Notes under the pieces: generated by a model | The model's database searches: none | Told to the model about the DNA's origin: nothing | The model's input: only the letters and a program-made list of their open reading frames with translations | From: Acidobacteria bacterium SCN 69-37 | Lineage (GTDB): Bacteria > Acidobacteriota > Vicinamibacteria > Vicinamibacterales > SCN-69-37 | Assembly (NCBI GenBank): GCA_001724025.1 | Contig: MEDJ01000001.1 | Span: 62,001 to 126,000 of the forward strand | Direction of reading: 5' to 3' | Length of the DNA: 64,000 bases | Made by a program: the position numbers and the translations under genes | Part shown: piece after piece, positions 22,297 through 47,787 of the stretch | How the letters are laid out: each line of letters starts with the position of its first letter | Numbering within the stretch: the first letter of the stretch is position 1

Positions 22297-24032
22297 TGCT
22301 GCGCCGGATCTGGGAGGAAGTCCCGTGCGACGCCGGCCCCGTGGCGGCGGTCGTCGAGGCGCTCGGGATTCCGCCGGTCATTGCCCGGATCCTGTGTCAG
22401 CGCGGATTCTCGACGCCCGAAGACGCCGGCCGGTTCCTCGAACCGAGCCTGGCCCAGCTGCACGATCCCTACACACTCGTCGACATGCGCGTGGCCGTCG
22501 ACCGGCTGCTCGCGGCGGTTGCACGACACGAGCCGATTGCCATCCACGGCGACTACGACGTCGACGGCATGACGGCCACCGTGATCCTGAGACGGGCGCT
22601 CGAAATGCTCGGCGCCGAGGTCACGCACTTCGTCCCCGATCGCCTGAAGGATGGCTACGGCCTGCAGCCGGCGACGATCGAACGGCTGCACGCGGGCGGC
22701 GCGCGCGTGATCGTGTCCGTCGACTGCGGTATCCGCGCGGCCGAAGCCGCGCAGCGGGCGCGGGATCTCGGCATCGATCTGATCATCACGGATCACCACG
22801 AGCCCGACGCGACGCTGCCGTCGGCGCTGGCCGTGATCAACCCGAAGCGGCCCGACTGCGCGTACCCGGAAAAGATGCTCGCCGGCGCCGGCGTGGCGCT
22901 GAAGCTGGTGCAGGCGCTGCTGACCAGCGGCGGACGCGGGTCGGAATGGCTCCCGGCCTTCGTGAAGATGGCTGCCATCGGCACGCTGGCCGACGTCGTC
23001 CCGCTGACGGGGGAGAACCGCGTCATCGCCAGTTGCGGCCTGCAGGGCCTGTCGAGCGGGCCGCACGCGCCGGGGCTCGAGGCGCTGCTGGCCGAGAGCG
23101 GCCTGGTCGGGCGGGCGCTCGACGCTTTCGACGTCGGCTTCCGCCTGGCGCCGCGGCTCAATGCGGCGGGCCGGATGAATTCGCCGGATCTCGCGCTCGA
23201 CCTGCTGCTGCTCCGCGGCCGCGAAGAGGCGGTCCGCGAGAAGGCGCGTGAGCTGGCGCGGCGGCTCGGCGAGGAGAACACGCGCCGGCAGGAACAGGAA
23301 GCGGCGATCCTCGCCGAAGCCCGCCGATCGATCGAGAAGGATCCGCAGGTCGGCGCGCAGAACCTCCTGATCGTGGCCGGCGAAGGCTGGCATCGCGGCG
23401 TCATCGGCATCGTCGCCTCGAAGATCGTGGATGCGTATCACAAGCCGGCGCTCGTGCTGTCGATCGAGGACGGCGTGGCGCGCGGGTCGGGCCGCAGCAT
23501 TCCCGGCTTCGACCTGCTCGCCGGGCTCGAGTCGTGTGCGGACGTGTTCCTCCAGTTCGGCGGGCACAAGCAGGCGGCCGGCGTCACGCTCGAGGCTGCG
23601 CGGATCGCGGAACTGCGCGATCGTCTGGCCCGCCACGCCAACGACCGGCTCGGGCCCGAGGATCTGATCCCGCGCCTGCGAATCGATGCCGCACTCGGCC
23701 TGCGCGAGATTTCGGGCGACGTCGTGCGCGGCCTGGCCCGGCTCGGCCCGTTCGGTGCGGCCAATCCGAAGCCGATCTTCCGCGCGGCCCCCGTCGACCT
23801 GGTCGCGTCGCCGCGCAAGCTGAAGGATCGACACCTCGCATTGATGGTGAAGCAGACAGGCCGGGCCTTCCGGGCGATGGCCTGGCGTTTCGCCGATCGC
23901 GAAAGCTACCTGACGACGAACCGATCCGGCCTGGAACTGGCGTACTCGCTGGGCGAATCCGTATTCCGCGGCGAACGGACGACGGAGTTGACGGTGGCCG
24001 ACATCCGGATGCCGGCCGAGGTTCCCGTGTGA
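22296..24032 (+). CDS. recJ: Single-stranded-DNA exonuclease RecJ
   Basis: RecJ degrades single-stranded DNA 5' to 3' in RecF-pathway recombination and mismatch repair. The 578-residue protein has the DHH phosphoesterase motifs AIHGDYDVDGMTA (motif I), SVDCGIRAAEAA, IITDHHEPDATLP (DHH), AGVALKLVQALL and AAIGTLADVVPLTGENR. The DHHA1 domain has GEGWHRGVIGIVASKI and GSGRSIPGFDLL, then FGGHKQAAGVTL and a C-terminal OB domain (LGPFGAANPKPIFRA). ATG 22296 overlaps the accA stop by one base; the stop overlaps the GTG of the next gene. Tight coupling suggests one operon from accA onward. Confidence 0.97.
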   Translation: MLRRIWEEVPCDAGPVAAVVEALGIPPVIARILCQRGFSTPEDAGRFLEPSLAQLHDPYTLVDMRVAVDRLLAAVARHEPIAIHGDYDVDGMTATVILRRALEMLGAEVTHFVPDRLKDGYGLQPATIERLHAGGARVIVSVDCGIRAAEAAQRARDLGIDLIITDHHEPDATLPSALAVINPKRPDCAYPEKMLAGAGVALKLVQALLTSGGRGSEWLPAFVKMAAIGTLADVVPLTGENRVIASCGLQGLSSGPHAPGLEALLAESGLVGRALDAFDVGFRLAPRLNAAGRMNSPDLALDLLLLRGREEAVREKARELARRLGEENTRRQEQEAAILAEARRSIEKDPQVGAQNLLIVAGEGWHRGVIGIVASKIVDAYHKPALVLSIEDGVARGSGRSIPGFDLLAGLESCADVFLQFGGHKQAAGVTLEAARIAELRDRLARHANDRLGPEDLIPRLRIDAALGLREISGDVVRGLARLGPFGAANPKPIFRAAPVDLVASPRKLKDRHLALMVKQTGRAFRAMAWRFADRESYLTTNRSGLELAYSLGESVFRGERTTELTVADIRMPAEVPV

Positions 24033-26188
24033 GATGGCAACCGCTGGCCCGCTGGGCCGTGGCGGCGGCGGGCGTGGCCACGGCCGTGGTGCTGTACACG
24101 CAGACGCGAGAGCGGCCGCCTGTCGACCGGCCGACGGTGGCCACGCCTGCCGATCCCGAGGCGGCCATGCAGTCGTCGGGTGGTACGACGATGCGGCTGC
24201 GCAACGGGGCCGTCGAGATCGAGATCGTGCACGAGGGCGAGACCGTCTACCCCGATGGCCGGACGCTCTGGAAGAAGGCCCGGTTTCGCGTAGGGGACGG
24301 CACGACGCTCGGTGCCGATGAGGTGGAAGCCTCGGGCGAAATGGTCGACGGTCAGCCCGCGGACCTGAAGCTGCGCGGCGCCGTGGAGATGCACACGCCC
24401 GAGGGCGCGTCGATTCAGGCCACGGAGGCGACCTACAACCACGGCACCGGCATCGCGATTCTGCCGGGGCCGGTGACGTTCACGCGCGGTCGGATCAGCG
24501 GCAGCGGCACGGGCGGTGAATATCATCGCGATACAGGTGTCTTCAACGTGCTCGCGGATGCGGCCGTCGAGACGGCAGCCGACGAGCAGGGGGGGCGCGT
24601 CACGGCCACCGCCCGGTCGATGACCTTCAATCGCGCCACGCTCGCGTTGCTCTTCGATACCGACGCGCGCATCGTCCACGAGACCCAGACGATGACGGGG
24701 GAGCGGGCGACGCTATATCTGGCCGAGGATCAGGATCAGTTTCGGGTGATCGAGCTGCGGGGCCGCGCGGCGGTCGTGCCCGTGCCGGGGCAGGAGGCCT
24801 CGGTGCCCGAGATGCACGCGCGCGACATCGACCTGGCGTTCTACGAGGGCACGCAGCAACTCGAGCGCGCGGTCCTGGTCGGCGGATCGAGCATGATCCT
24901 CGTCGAAAACGGCGGTCGCCGGTCGATCGAGGCGGCCGACATCGCGCTCGGCACGGCGACCGACGGCCGCACGGTGACGTCACTCGAAGCGCACGAACAC
25001 GTCATCGTCCGGACACCGGCGCAGTCCGGGCAGCGCGCACGGACGATCACCGCCGCCAACCTGACGACCACCGGCAACGAGAAGGGCCTGACAACGGCAA
25101 CGTTCACCGGCGGCGCACGATTCACGGAGATCGTGCCCGGCAGCGGCAATGCCGGGCCGTCGGAGCGCACGGGGCGATCACAGACGCTGGCCATGAAACT
25201 CGACGGCCAGCTCGACAACATCCAGTCCGCGCAGTTCCAGCAGAACGTCGAGTTCCACGATGGCGACGTGTCGGGTGACGGCGACATCGGCGACTACGAC
25301 GCGGAATCCGGACGGCTCGTGCTGCGTCCCGGCCGTGTGCCGACGCGCTGGCCGCACGTCGAGTCCGGCCGCGTCACCGTCGACGCGCGCGAATTGATCG
25401 ACATCGAGCTCGACAGCGAGAAGGTTCACGCACGCGGGGACGTGCGCACCGTGAGCGTGGGCGAGGGCGGCACAAGCCGCGGCCGCGGGGCCGGCGCCTC
25501 GTCGTCGAGCGGACTGATCGATCCTGGCGAGACGATGCTCGGGTTCGCGACCGAGTTCTGGTACGACGGCACCGAGGAGCGCGCGCGGTATCGCGGCAGC
25601 GAGACGGCGCTGGCGCGCGTGACGCAGGGCGATACCCGGATCGCCGCGGTCGAGATCGAACTCGTCGAATCGACCGAGGATCTGACGGCCAGCGGCCGCG
25701 TGGACTCGACGTTCACGGCGGCGGCGGCCGGGCAGTCGGGACCGCCGCGCACGTATCGCGTCACCGCCGAGACGCTGGCCTATCGCCAGCAGCCGCGCAC
25801 CGCCACGTACACCGGATCGCCGGTGGTCCTGATGGCGCCGGACGGTGTGACGCGGGCGCGGACGATGGTGATGACCCTGGCTGCCGAGAGCCGGACGCTG
25901 GAGCGCCTGGACGCGCAGACGGACGTGCACGCCGTGATGCCGCAGGGCCGCGAGGCGCTGGCCGAGTCGCTCTTGTACGAGGCGCCCATCGACCGCTACA
26001 CTCTGCGGGGCGTCCCCGGCCGGCCACTCGTGCTCCGCGCCGAGGGGGACACGCCGGGGACGTGTTCGCAATCGGTGGGGCTGATGGTCTATTTCACGAG
26101 CGGCGAGCCACCGGTCTTCCCGGCGCGGGAGAATCCGGGACAGGTCGTGCGGACCACGGTTTCGTGTACCGGTCCCCTGAAACGATGA
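24029..26188 (+). CDS. Fused LptC-LptA-like LPS export protein with extended OstA region
   Basis: A 719-residue protein anchored by one N-terminal helix ([20 protein letters not shown]). Beta-strand repeats with spacing typical of the LptC and OstA/LptA fold follow: [88 protein letters not shown] and [19 protein letters not shown]. LptC and LptA normally total about 370 residues in two genes; here one chain is nearly twice that, so it could build a longer periplasmic bridge. The role is supported by lptB immediately downstream, with ATGA overlap. GTG 24029 overlaps the recJ stop. Confidence 0.78.
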
Positions 26189-26913
26189 TGGCCAGACTGC
26201 GGACCGAACAGCTCACCAAGGCCTTTGGCGGCCGCACGGTCGTGCGCGCCGTCGATCTGCACGTCTCGTCGGGCGAGGTCGTCGGCCTGCTCGGCCCGAA
26301 CGGGGCGGGGAAGACGACGACGTTCAGCATGGTCGTGGGGCTCGTGGGGCCGGATTCCGGTCGTGTCCTGCTCGACGATCACGACGTGACGGCCGATCCG
26401 ATGTACATCCGCGCGCGGAAGGGGATCGGGTATCTGCCGCAGGAACCGTCGATTTTCCGCGGCCTGACGGTCGAAGAGAACGTGATGGCGATTCTCGAGA
26501 CGCTGCCGATGGGGATGGCGGCGCGGCGGGCCCGGCTCTCCGCCCTGCTCGACGAGCTCGGCCTCACCAGCCTGGCGCGATCGAAGGCGTACACGCTGTC
26601 GGGCGGCGAGCGTCGCCGGGTGGAAATCACGCGTGCGCTGGTCAACGAACCGAAGTTCATCCTGCTCGACGAACCGTTCGCGGGGATCGATCCGATTGCG
26701 GTGGGCGAAATCCAGAAGATCATCGCCCACCTGCGCGATCGCGGCATCGGCGTCCTGATCACGGATCACAACGTCCGCGAGACGCTCCGGATCACCGATC
26801 GTGCATACATCGTGCACGACGGATCGGTCTTCCGCAGCGGCACCCCGGGCAGCCTGGCCGCCGATGACGACGTGAAGCGGACGTATCTCGGCGCCGATTT
26901 CCGGCTCGATTGA
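26185..26913 (+). CDS. lptB: LPS export ABC transporter ATP-binding protein LptB
   Basis: This 242-residue cytosolic ATPase drives LPS extraction by LptF and LptG. Walker A is [16 protein letters not shown], the Q-loop is [19 protein letters not shown] (typical of LptB), the ABC signature is [15 protein letters not shown], Walker B is [16 protein letters not shown] and the switch His is in [10 protein letters not shown]. Two ATGs stand in tandem at 26185 and 26188; the first overlaps the upstream stop as ATGA. Its membrane partners are encoded 18 kb away as a fused gene at 45439-47787. Confidence 0.97.
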
Positions 26914-26981
26914 GGGTGGTGGGCATGACGCGGGCGGCCCAGTGGTCTAAGATGGACCAATAGCACGGAATTCCTGACGAC

Positions 26982-28418
26982 ATGGCCATCCAGCAGAAAC
27001 TCCAGGCGCGGCTCAGCCAGAAACTGATCCTGACGCCATCGCTCCAGCAGGCTATCAAGCTGCTGCCGATGTCCACGCTCGAACTGGCTGAGCTGCTCAA
27101 CCAGGAGATGGTGGAGAACCCGCTGCTCGAGGAGATCCCGACCGACGATCCGGTCGCCCAGGAGCAGGAACAGGCGCAGGCGGCCGAGGTCCCGGAACCG
27201 GAGAAGAAGCCCGACGAGAAGACGGATCCCTGGGACGATCAGGATTACGAGTATTTCTTCGGGGAATACCTCGATGACGGCTATCGATCGCGGCAGCCGC
27301 AGGAAGTGAAGGAACTGCCGCCGATCGAGAACACGCTCTCGAGCAAGGGGTCGCTGGCCGATCACCTCATGTGGCAGCTCAGCCTGCAGGCGGCCGACGA
27401 CCTCACGCGCGAGGTTGGCGCGGCCATCATCGGCAACATCGACGACGACGGGTACCTGGTCGCATCGGTGAACGAGATTGCGGGACTCGGGCCGTGGGAA
27501 GTGGCCGACGTCGAGCGGGCGCTCGAGCACGTGCACACGTTCGATCCCGTCGGGGTGGGGGCGCGCGACCTGCAGGAGTGCCTGCTGCTGCAGCTCCGAC
27601 CGCTCGGGCTGGAAGGATCGCCCGTCGAGACGCTCATCCGCGATCACCTGCGGCTGCTGCAGAACCATCGCATTCCCGATCTCGCGAAGGCGCTGGGCTG
27701 CGACATCGAAGAGATCAAGCAGCACATCGAGGTGATCAAGGGCCTCGATCCGAAGCCGGGGTCACGCTACAGTCCGGCCGATTCGCAGTACGTGATCCCG
27801 GACGTCTACATCGTGAAGACCGACGACGGCTATCGCGCGATGCTGAACGAGGACGGGCTGCCGCAGCTGCGCATCAGCCCGGTCTACCGGCGGCTGCTCG
27901 ACAAGGGTGGCGAGAACAGCGAGGAGACGCGCGCGTACGTGAAGGACAAGTTCCGCGCGGCGCTCTGGCTGCTGAAGTCGGTCGACCAGCGGCAGAAGAC
28001 GATCCTGAAGGTCGGCAACAGCATCATCAACTTCCAGCGGGCGTTCCTCGATCACGGCATCGAGCACCTGCGTCCGCTGGTGCTGCGCGACGTGGCCAAC
28101 GACATCGGCATGCACGAGTCGACGGTCTCGCGCGTGGTCAACAACAAGTACGTCCACACGCCGCAGGGCGTCTACGAGCTGAAGTTCTTCTTCCACAGCG
28201 GTATCAGCAGCGCCTACGGCGAGAGCGTCTCGTCGGTGACGATCAAGCAGCGGATCCGGAAGATCATCGAGGCCGAGGATCCGAAGCGTCCGCTGAGCGA
28301 CTCGAAGATCATGAACGTCCTGCAGCAGGAAGGCCTCGAGCTCGCGCGGCGCACGATCGCGAAATACCGCGAGGAACTGAAGATCCCGACGTCGAACCAG
28401 CGCAAGGTACTCTACTGA
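26982..28418 (+). CDS. rpoN: RNA polymerase sigma-54 factor
   Basis: Sigma-54 directs polymerase to -24/-12 promoters and needs AAA+ activators. The protein has 478 residues. Region I is Gln/Leu-rich (MAIQQKLQARLSQKLILTPSLQQAIKLLPM). Region II is an acidic linker (PTDDPVAQEQEQAQAAEVPE). The core-binding domain holds FDPVGVGARDLQECLLLQL. The DNA-binding part has the helix-turn-helix VANDIGMHESTVSRVVNNKY and the RpoN box ARRTIAKYREELKIPTSNQRK. It heads the common cluster rpoN-hpf-hprK-rapZ-PTS. The upstream gap of 68 bases shows no strong promoter. Confidence 0.98.
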   Translation: MAIQQKLQARLSQKLILTPSLQQAIKLLPMSTLELAELLNQEMVENPLLEEIPTDDPVAQEQEQAQAAEVPEPEKKPDEKTDPWDDQDYEYFFGEYLDDGYRSRQPQEVKELPPIENTLSSKGSLADHLMWQLSLQAADDLTREVGAAIIGNIDDDGYLVASVNEIAGLGPWEVADVERALEHVHTFDPVGVGARDLQECLLLQLRPLGLEGSPVETLIRDHLRLLQNHRIPDLAKALGCDIEEIKQHIEVIKGLDPKPGSRYSPADSQYVIPDVYIVKTDDGYRAMLNEDGLPQLRISPVYRRLLDKGGENSEETRAYVKDKFRAALWLLKSVDQRQKTILKVGNSIINFQRAFLDHGIEHLRPLVLRDVANDIGMHESTVSRVVNNKYVHTPQGVYELKFFFHSGISSAYGESVSSVTIKQRIRKIIEAEDPKRPLSDSKIMNVLQQEGLELARRTIAKYREELKIPTSNQRKVLY

Positions 28419-28442
28419 GTTCCCCCCAGCAGGGCAGGTGCC

Positions 28443-28988
28443 ATGACACTGACAGTGACCGGTCGTCGTATCGATATCTCTCCCCTCGTCCGACAGCAGA
28501 TCCAGGCGAAGATCGACAGGCTCGATCGCCTGCTGCGCGGGGATGCCGTGTCGACGCAGGTCGTGCTGACCGGCGAGCGCCAGGGAATATTGTGCGAGAT
28601 CACGCTGCGCATCCGCGGCGACCGGACCCTGGTCGGGGTGGGCCGGCACACGCGCATCATCACGGCCGTCGGCCAGGCGCTGGAGAAGATCAAGCAGCAG
28701 GCGCAGCGGTTGACGGATCGCCGGAAGACGCTGCGTCGCACCGGGGACAAGCCGGCCGAGGTCGAGGCCCGGCCGAAGCCGGCCAGCCGCGGCACCGCGC
28801 GCGCATCGACGGCGACGACCGTGGTGCGGGCGCGCCGGTACGCGGTGAAGTCCATGACCGCCGAGGAGGCGGCCGCGCGCCTCGGGACCGCGGCGTTCCT
28901 CGTCTTCAGGCAGGCCACCAGCGGACGCGTGGCCGTGGTGTTCCGTCGCCCCGACGGCAAGGCCGGGCTGATCGAGCCCGAAGACTGA
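28443..28988 (+). CDS. hpf: Long-form ribosome hibernation promoting factor
   Basis: A 181-residue cytosolic protein. The N-terminal S30AE domain (TLTVTGRRIDISPLVRQQIQAKIDRLDRLL) binds the decoding centre of idle ribosomes. A linker rich in Pro, Ala and Thr leads to the C-terminal dimerisation domain (VVRARRYAVKSMTAEEAAARL, then VAVVFRRPDGKAGLIEPED), which marks the long form that makes 100S dimers. It follows rpoN by 24 bases and precedes hprK by 13, the standard order in bacteria with a nitrogen-type or regulatory PTS. Confidence 0.94.
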   Translation: MTLTVTGRRIDISPLVRQQIQAKIDRLDRLLRGDAVSTQVVLTGERQGILCEITLRIRGDRTLVGVGRHTRIITAVGQALEKIKQQAQRLTDRRKTLRRTGDKPAEVEARPKPASRGTARASTATTVVRARRYAVKSMTAEEAAARLGTAAFLVFRQATSGRVAVVFRRPDGKAGLIEPED

Positions 28989-45438: not shown

Positions 45439-47787
45439 GTGAAAACGCTCGACCGGTACCTGATTCGCGAGATCGTTCCGCCGTTCGGCCTGGCCCTCGG
45501 CCTGTTCACGTTCCTGCTCGCCGTCAAGCCGATGCTGGAATACACGCAGGACCTGCTGGTCAAAGGCGTCCCGCTGCAGACCATCGGGTTCCTGCTCCTG
45601 ATGCTCCTGCCGCAGTCGCTCGGCGTCACCATTCCCATGGCGCTGCTGACAGGCATCCTGATGGGCCTCGGACGGCTGTCAGCCGACCGCGAGGCCGTGG
45701 CCATGCTGGCCTGCGGCGTCAGCCCGATGCGCCTGCTGCGACCGGTCCTGGTCCTGGCCCTGGCGGCCGGGGCCGTCAACATGTACCTGCTCATCAGGCT
45801 GGTGCCCGACGCCAATCAGCAGTTCCGCGTCGAGACCTTCCGTCTGCTGGCCCAGATGGGTGAGAACGACATCCGTCCCGGACAGGTCTTCGAGGGGTTC
45901 CCACAGAAAGTGATCCGGGTTGGCGACGTCCGGCCCGGAGGCGGCTGGGTGGATGTCCTGCTGGCCGACACGAGCCAGCCCGGGCCGCCGGCGCTCACGC
46001 TCGCGGCCCAGGGGTACCTCGAGGCCGACCCGGTCCGCCGCGAAGTGGCCATCGTCCTCCCCGGCGAGTCGACCCGGTACCTGCCAGGTGCCGATGGGGT
46101 CTACGACGTGGCCGTGGGGCGCGACGTCCGCCTGACCGTCTCGGCCGAGTCGGTCTTCGGCCCCGGAGACATCACCGTGTCCCGCGGACGGGCCGAGATG
46201 ACCATTGCCGACCTGCGGCGCGTGGAGGCCGAGAAGATCGCCAACGGCGTCTCGCCACACCCGGAGGTCATGCACAGGCACCAGATGTTCTCGTTCCCGG
46301 TCGCGTGCCTGGTGTTCGCCCTCATGGGGGTCGCGCTCGGGCTGCATACCCGCAAGGAAGGCAAGCTCGGGGGCCTGACGCTGGGGCTGGGCGTGATCGC
46401 CCTGTACTACGCGGTCATGATGATCTTCGAGGACCTGACCAAGGGCGGGCAGTTCTCCCCCTACTGGGCCCGGTGGATGCCGAACATCATCGTAGGGGCC
46501 CTGGCCGTCGTGGCGCTGCGGGCGCGGATGCGCCAGTCAGGCCGCGAGTGGACCATTGCTCTACCGGCCTGGCTCACCTTTCGTCGCGGCCGCCGCCACA
46601 GCACCGCCCACGCCGGCCCCGTCGATGCGTCGCCCACGGACGGCCGGATCGTCATCGTGCTGCGCATTCCCGACATCCGACTCCCCCGTCTCCGGCTGCT
46701 CGATCGATACGTGGCCCGGCACTATCTGAACGTCGCCACGCTGTCGTTCGTCGGCATGCTGGTCCTGTTTTTCATCGGCACGCTGATCGACAAGTCCGAG
46801 CGGCTGTTCAAGGGCGAAGCCACAGCCGCGATGCTGTTCGAGTATCTCTATCTGTCGACGCCGCAGTTCATCGTGCACGTCGCGCCCATGGCAACGCTCG
46901 TCGCGGTGCTCGCCACGATTGGCGGCCTGACGCGGACCGGTGAGCTGACCGTGATGCGTGCCTGTGGCGTCAGCCTGTACCGGATCGGGCTCCCGCTGCT
47001 GGCCCTGGCCGTTGTCTGGGGGACCGGCCTGTTCATGCTCGACGACCGCGTGCTGGCGCACGCCAACCTGCGCGTGCAGGCCCTCGAGCAGCGGATTCGG
47101 GGTCTCAGCGAGGATGCCACCGCGCCGCCGCCAGCCGTCTCGAACTGGCGATGGGGCCACAACGGCCTCCTCTACTACTACACGACGTTCGATCCCTCGG
47201 CACGCACACTGCACGGCCTCTCGGTCTTCGAGCGGCCGGCCGACGGCGCGCATCGGCTCGCCCGCCACGTCGTCGTCTCGCGCGCGACGTATGCGGAGGG
47301 TCACTGGACCGCGGCCGATGGCTGGGAACAGACGTTCGGCGTGCCGGGCAAGGACGTCCCCGTGCGGTCCGACTTCACGTCCCGCCCGCTCGCGGGAATC
47401 GCCTCGCCAGAGGACCTGGCGGAAGTCGAGGCTCAGACAGCGCGCCTGATGACCTACGGCAACCTGCGGCAGTACGCCGCCGAGATGGTGGCCGGCGGCA
47501 TGACCGCGCTCGATGCCCGCGTGGAACTCGCCCGCCGCGTGGCCTTTCCCTGCGTGACGCTCGTGATGACGGTGCTCGGGATTGCGTTCGGCGTGAGCAC
47601 GGGTCGGCACGGCGCCCTCTACGGCGTCGGGCTCGCGCTCGTGCTCGGCGCCGGCTACTGGCTGGCCGACACCTTCTTTGTCGCGATTGGTCAGGCAGGC
47701 CTGCTGGCGCCCTGGCTGTCGGCGTGGGCCGCGAACCTGCTGTTCGCCGCCCTGGCCCTCTATGCGGTCTTCACGGTCCGGACGTGA
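45439..47787 (+). CDS. lptFG: Fused LptF-LptG LPS export permease
   Basis: One 782-residue frame holds two YjgP/YjgQ permeases that are normally separate. The first starts VKTLDRYLIREIVPPFGLALGLFTFLLAV and includes MLLPQSLGVTIPMALLTGILMGLGRLSADREAVAMLACGVS, then ALMGVALGLHTRKEGKLGG. A linker around residue 400 (RRGRRHSTAHAGPVDASPTDG) leads to the second, LRLLDRYVARHYLNVATLSFVGMLVLFF, APMATLVAVLATIGGLTRTGELTVMRACGVS and a second permease end. Each half has the N- and C-terminal helices that flank a periplasmic jellyroll domain. GTG 45439 gives the standard N-terminus; an upstream ATG at 45409 is possible. With LptB and LptCA (24029-26913) this completes the inner-membrane LPS exporter. Confidence 0.9.
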   Translation: MKTLDRYLIREIVPPFGLALGLFTFLLAVKPMLEYTQDLLVKGVPLQTIGFLLLMLLPQSLGVTIPMALLTGILMGLGRLSADREAVAMLACGVSPMRLLRPVLVLALAAGAVNMYLLIRLVPDANQQFRVETFRLLAQMGENDIRPGQVFEGFPQKVIRVGDVRPGGGWVDVLLADTSQPGPPALTLAAQGYLEADPVRREVAIVLPGESTRYLPGADGVYDVAVGRDVRLTVSAESVFGPGDITVSRGRAEMTIADLRRVEAEKIANGVSPHPEVMHRHQMFSFPVACLVFALMGVALGLHTRKEGKLGGLTLGLGVIALYYAVMMIFEDLTKGGQFSPYWARWMPNIIVGALAVVALRARMRQSGREWTIALPAWLTFRRGRRHSTAHAGPVDASPTDGRIVIVLRIPDIRLPRLRLLDRYVARHYLNVATLSFVGMLVLFFIGTLIDKSERLFKGEATAAMLFEYLYLSTPQFIVHVAPMATLVAVLATIGGLTRTGELTVMRACGVSLYRIGLPLLALAVVWGTGLFMLDDRVLAHANLRVQALEQRIRGLSEDATAPPPAVSNWRWGHNGLLYYYTTFDPSARTLHGLSVFERPADGAHRLARHVVVSRATYAEGHWTAADGWEQTFGVPGKDVPVRSDFTSRPLAGIASPEDLAEVEAQTARLMTYGNLRQYAAEMVAGGMTALDARVELARRVAFPCVTLVMTVLGIAFGVSTGRHGALYGVGLALVLGAGYWLADTFFVAIGQAGLLAPWLSAWAANLLFAALALYAVFTVRT

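Follow-up and report, generated by a model that had tools for sequence, protein, structure and literature searches.

LptF and LptG, the permeases of the lipopolysaccharide (LPS) exporter, are described as separate proteins in the literature that was searched. A locus of Acidobacteria bacterium SCN 69-37, located in a stretch of 64,000 nucleotides that was analyzed as a whole (referred to as the window), raises the question whether both permeases can be made and used as a single chain. The evidence given below speaks for such an arrangement: very probably, LptFG is a single-chain permease that has LptB2 and a one-piece LptC-LptA bridge as its partners.

Both permeases lie in one open reading frame

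The forward strand between positions 45439 and 47787 translates to 782 residues, with a single stop codon at the end and none internally. The surrounding stop-to-stop frame comprises 836 codons, within which the GTG at 45439 is a plausible start. A search with PF03739 (LptF_LptG) gave two matches within the one protein (448.6 bits and E = 1.9e-134 for the whole protein). When scored separately, the halves reached 240.5 and 217.6 bits, both above the gathering cut-off of 27.9. Both permeases are complete and reside in one uninterrupted frame, with LptF before LptG. This confirms the original prediction, which had claimed a single frame and proposed the PF03739 search as a check. The gene and its parts are as follows.

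45439..47787, + strand: lptFG, fused LPS-export permease, 782 aa, with a putative GTG start (translation, PF03739, AlphaFold2)
45439..46533, + strand: LptF half, residues 1-365, with PF03739 at 6-360 and glutamate E85 (profile, tree, PDB chains, fold match)
46534..46689, + strand: inter-domain linker, residues ~366-417, predicted to be disordered and cytoplasmic, basic (low pLDDT, variability, charge)
46690..47784, + strand: LptG half, residues 418-782, with glutamate E502 (profile, tree, PDB chains, fold match)

The genome (4.43 Mb, 100% complete) yielded no further PF03739 copy, fused or unfused. Hence, the second, unfused lptF/lptG pair that the original prediction had named as possible counterevidence did not turn up in this search.

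Assignment of the halves to LptF and LptG

The best family for the first half was TIGR04407 (LptF equivalog), and for the second half TIGR04408 (LptG equivalog). Taken alone, the halves stayed below the respective NCBIfam cut-offs (174.3 versus 230 bits and 194.3 versus 240 bits), indicating that both are divergent. The whole chain scored 272.6 bits with TIGR04407, a value that passes only by summing both halves, and 310.8 bits with TIGR04408. Phylogenetic analysis, with E. coli and Fusobacterium as the only outgroups, placed all sampled F halves in a clade with the LptF proteins of these two organisms (support 0.77 at the node with E. coli), and the G halves in a clade with their LptG proteins (support 0.87-0.97). 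In line with this assignment, all LptF chains of the PDB matched the profile best at positions 6-378, corresponding to the first half, and all LptG chains at positions 422-780, corresponding to the second. In 101 proteins, the pairwise distances among the F halves were tightly correlated with those among the G halves (Mantel r 0.95, a value reached in none of 2000 permutations), which indicates that the halves travel together and co-evolve. In E. coli and in Fusobacterium, lptF and lptG are separate genes that overlap by one base.

Predicted fold, coupling residues and linker

AlphaFold2 modeled the whole LptFG chain with a pLDDT of 89.4 and a pTM of 0.84. The linker appeared disordered, with low pLDDT in blocks 371-410. 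Structural comparison aligned the LptF half with 9dok_F (Z 24.8, rmsd 5.5, 353 residues) and the LptG half with 6mjp_G (Z 29.1, rmsd 4.6, 352 residues). In E. coli, the glutamates E84 of LptF and E88 of LptG are crucial for the coupling to LptB (PMC5082905). E84 aligns with E85 and E88 with E502 of the fused protein, and both residues are invariant across 101 sequences.

Comparison of 113 distinct linkers revealed lengths from 24 to 155 residues, with a median of 51 and quartiles of 46 and 55. The linker is poorly conserved, the majority residue accounting for 37% compared to 57% in the permease halves (101 sequences). In 94% of the loci it carries a positive net charge, which is what a cytoplasmic segment would be expected to have. 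The hydrophilic linker of the original prediction was thereby recovered as a basic and variable segment of ~50 residues. If the halves share the six-helix topology of the solved LptF and LptG structures, both linker ends would be cytoplasmic. In E. coli-type exporters, TM1 of LptG and TM5 of LptF line a gate at which the helix of LptC is placed (PMC6744409), and on the same topology the linker would have to run near this lateral gate.

Some loci deviate in length. The longest linker (L150, 155 aa) contains two extra hydrophobic stretches, so that an added membrane hairpin is possible, and similarly long frames were observed in other members of the same family (f33; G166, G266, G288, G302). In seven loci (L144, L146, L147, L151, L152, L154, L155) an insertion of up to ~100 residues separates two profile-matched parts of the LptF half, and probably falls in the periplasmic domain. 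Two loci of one genus carry a long insertion in the LptG half (L163 and L168; genus g121, family f36).

The joined frame is found throughout Acidobacteriota

PF03739 matches were present in 141 of 149 genomes of the class, mostly as pairs within one frame of some 730-900 codons. When the phylum was searched with a profile built on the fused protein, 196 of 199 genomes matched. Weak, partial or missing cases were re-examined with PF03739, and two more families were added. Of the 77 Acidobacteriota families sampled, 76 have both permeases in a single open frame; in f76, a contig end cuts the second half. In the 77th family (f61, G243) the LptF half runs off the contig. Even in the most divergent family (f38), all PF03739 fragments lie within one frame of about 730-815 codons. 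The order F then G was observed in every locus examined in detail, and the joined frame is also present in single-contig assemblies such as G029, G064, G158 and G174. Chance can be excluded, since hundreds of genomes contain this two-domain frame. The original prediction had viewed the fusion within Vicinamibacteria; the fusion itself holds, but this scope was too narrow, as it spreads through the phylum. By parsimony, a single fusion event in the phylum ancestor would be the simplest explanation of the distribution.

Several loci stood out during this comparison. The only unfused permease seen is a stand-alone LptG-like gene of 361 aa beside tilS (L145, G160 contig 48). The genome in question (75% complete, 3% contamination) also holds a fused copy, and contamination is the suspected source of the stand-alone gene. 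Duplicate or tandem fused lptFG genes were noticed at L025, L027 and L098 and in G126, G163 and G287; a duplicate might possibly be a paralogous exporter for another lipid. In G127 contig 24 and G008 contig 84, the frame breaks inside a permease half, away from the junction, owing to sequencing errors or decay. Six loci (L067, L080, L087, L088, L097, L141) come from public contigs whose titles name Acidimicrobiia, Cyanobacteria or Bifidobacterium breve; they carry Acidobacteriota lptFG of the Vicinamibacteria type, and these titles look wrong. In a plasmid collection, tblastn retrieved 13 records; all of these matched no more than a part of one half, and none covered 80% of the query. Viral contigs gave no LptFG match.

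One chain or two proteins

Based on the sequence, we infer that LptFG is produced as one polypeptide. Three other explanations for the joined frame were considered. Firstly, the whole chain might be made and then be cut in the linker, yielding LptF and LptG, with the fusion only securing equal synthesis of both. A poorly conserved linker that is predicted to be disordered and could be accessible to cytoplasmic proteases would suit such a processing step. However, no conserved motif was found in the middle of the linker, and its narrow length range favors a tether over a cleavage site. We therefore consider cleavage very unlikely.

Secondly, the frame might be open and still give rise to two proteins, if LptG started at an internal codon of the linker. 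An in-frame start codon preceded by a Shine-Dalgarno-like match of at least 4 bases was detected in 38 of 113 linkers, and in the window the GTG at 46657 is an in-frame candidate. Outside the linkers, however, individual internal codons of the genes reach the level of at least 4 bases 12% of the time, and linkers usually offer several candidates, so that the 38 cases represent no clear excess. The GTG at 46657, which is the sole candidate in the linker of the window, has only a 3-base match, and an in-frame ATG, GTG or TTG is entirely missing from 8 of the 113 linkers. As evidence against internal initiation the scan itself is weak, because the start of lptF seldom shows such a match either (22 of 113). 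The stronger argument is that an internal start leaves unexplained why the frame has been kept over long times through a linker of variable length. With the frame kept phylum-wide and some linkers devoid of any start codon, the frameshift or internal initiation near 46600, which the original prediction had raised against itself, is without support. Two separately initiated proteins are thus highly improbable.

Finally, the frame might appear joined through a mistake in sequencing or assembly, with a stop codon lost or the frame shifted between adjacent genes; only a small change would be needed where the genes overlap by one base, as in E. coli and Fusobacterium. This explanation is refuted for the phylum by the joined frame in independent genomes of 76 families, single-contig assemblies included, and deserves practically no credence. 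We thus retain the single-chain LptFG permease as the preferred reading. A fixed 1:1 ratio of LptF to LptG can reasonably be expected from such a fusion.

LptC and LptA are joined as well

A second fusion, of LptC and LptA, had been predicted in the same window at 24029-26188, and was verified as a protein of 719 aa with matches to PF06835 as well as PF03968. The two adjoining exporter genes are as follows.

24029..26188, + strand: lptCA, 719 aa, with N-terminal membrane helix, LptC domain and LptA/OstA-like beta groove (PF06835, PF03968, AlphaFold2)
26185..26913, + strand: lptB, exporter ATPase (TIGR04406, PF00005)

PF06835 (LptC) scored 22.1 bits in the LptCA protein of the window, compared to a cut-off of 21, and TIGR04409 stayed below its cut-off (32.3 versus 38). 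In 8 of 9 LptCA relatives, PF06835 reached 41-72 bits and was placed at the N-terminal end. PF03968 (LptA/OstA) matched the protein of the window in three stretches, with 49 bits exceeding the cut-off of 20.4, while the LptA equivalog TIGR03002 remained below its threshold (36.2 versus 71.7). In nine relatives, 2-5 PF03968 stretches per protein were counted. Of the predicted weld of LptC and LptA at a fixed 1:1 ratio, the fusion was borne out, but a plain 1:1 ratio was not, as each chain contains several LptA-like stretches.

The AlphaFold2 model of LptCA (pLDDT 85.4, pTM 0.71) consists of a helix at residues 3-26 followed by an almost unbroken beta array from 47 to 712. LptC could be aligned over 140 residues within the stretch 44-193 (Z 12.6), and LptA with the stretches 124-253 and 604-711 (Z 11.8 and 8.6, respectively). 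The list of structural neighbors obtained with VIA-align also contained MORN-repeat and OspA proteins, which form long beta arrays and were not taken as relatives. Judged by the model, the bridge would probably come as one piece that starts at the inner membrane and extends across a large part of the periplasm.

lptCA is situated directly upstream of lptB, with the stop and start codons overlapping in ATGA at 26185, and LptCA homologues of about 650-870 aa adjoin lptB in distant families. In the window, the order at 24029-28985 is lptCA, lptB, rpoN and hpf, followed by hprK and a rapZ-like gene; recJ is located upstream. The LptCA profile matched 166 of 199 genomes; none of the matches fell in family f38 and some others, which may be due to divergence and was not taken as absence. 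A second LptCA copy was not found with this profile in the genome of the window. A genome scan with PF03968 missed even the LptCA protein of the window, so its sensitivity does not suffice to rule out a separate LptA.

Further exporter components were sought in the same genome. LptB scored 353 bits with TIGR04406 (LPS_export_lptB), above the cut-off of 240, and also matched PF00005. Of the lipid A pathway only lpxC was searched for, and it was found with 319.5 bits (cut-off 187). For LptD (PF04453), a frame of 922 aa (G000:C19:188826) scored 19.5 bits, which is below the gathering score of 22.4; LptD is still likely to be encoded in the genome.

A model of the exporter

According to the proposed model, the six-helix bundles of LptF and LptG would pack together into a pseudo-heterodimer that rests on an LptB dimer. 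On the cytoplasmic side, the basic linker of ~50 residues would lead from helix 6 of LptF to helix 1 of LptG, passing near the gate formed by TM1 of LptG and TM5 of LptF. ATP hydrolysis by LptB2, relayed via both kept coupling glutamates, would drive the extraction of LPS, which would then move over the LptC domain into the continuous LptA-like groove of LptCA and towards LptD. Besides fixing the stoichiometry of F and G, the fusion may stand in for the translational coupling exerted by overlapping lptF-lptG genes elsewhere. There is about an even chance, in our estimate, that the exporter of Acidobacteriota is consolidated and phylum-diagnostic in a broader sense, with three kinds of protein (LptFG, LptB and LptCA) instead of five making up its inner-membrane and periplasmic parts, and both fusions dating back to the phylum ancestor.

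A survey of 903 genomes published in 2022 reported lptF/lptG as "apparently lacking in Acidobacteria" and drew on gene distributions of this kind for arguments about the origins of the outer membrane (PMC8871954). Probably, this gap is caused by the fusion together with divergent halves that fall below the equivalog cut-offs. In the open-access literature that was searched, which lacks most subscription journals, neither a natural fusion of LptF with LptG nor one of LptC with LptA turned up; two-domain entries may already exist in database annotation. A phylum of abundant soil bacteria appears to run its LPS exporter with a covalently joined permease, in which subunit order and stoichiometry would be naturally fixed. 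The joined LptFG is a candidate shared derived character of Acidobacteriota. It would also supply structural and single-molecule studies of the lipid extractor with a single-chain construct that already exists, and LptB2FG is regarded as a new antibiotic target (PMC10794137).

Comparison with known systems

The LptB2FG complexes of E. coli, Klebsiella, Vibrio, Acinetobacter and Pseudomonas (6MHU, 5L75, 6MJP, 8FRL, 5X5Y) served for comparison. LptFG shares with them both permease folds, the orthologous order F then G, the coupling glutamates and the partner LptB. Unlike in those systems, where LptF and LptG are separate chains encoded by separate and often overlapping genes, both are joined here in one frame by a linker of ~50 residues. 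The Lpt cluster of Negativicutes and Halanaerobiales likewise departs from the two standard permease genes (Antunes et al. 2016, PMC5007114). These diderm Firmicutes, however, have a single LptF/G homologue and not a two-domain fusion, as well as two separate OstA-domain proteins of ~200 aa, which are maybe LptA and LptC (PMC5007114).

LptCA resembles the E. coli proteins in combining the helix and beta-jellyroll of LptC with the beta-jellyroll of LptA. Whereas LptC and LptA are separate in E. coli, LptCA is a single chain of 719 aa that comprises the membrane helix, the LptC domain and the LptA-like groove. LetB is a tunnel built of MCE domains and is unrelated to the beta groove of LptCA. 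With the LetB-type tunnel, in which one polypeptide bridges the inner and outer membrane for lipid traffic (PMC8727689), LptCA would share this single-chain layout.
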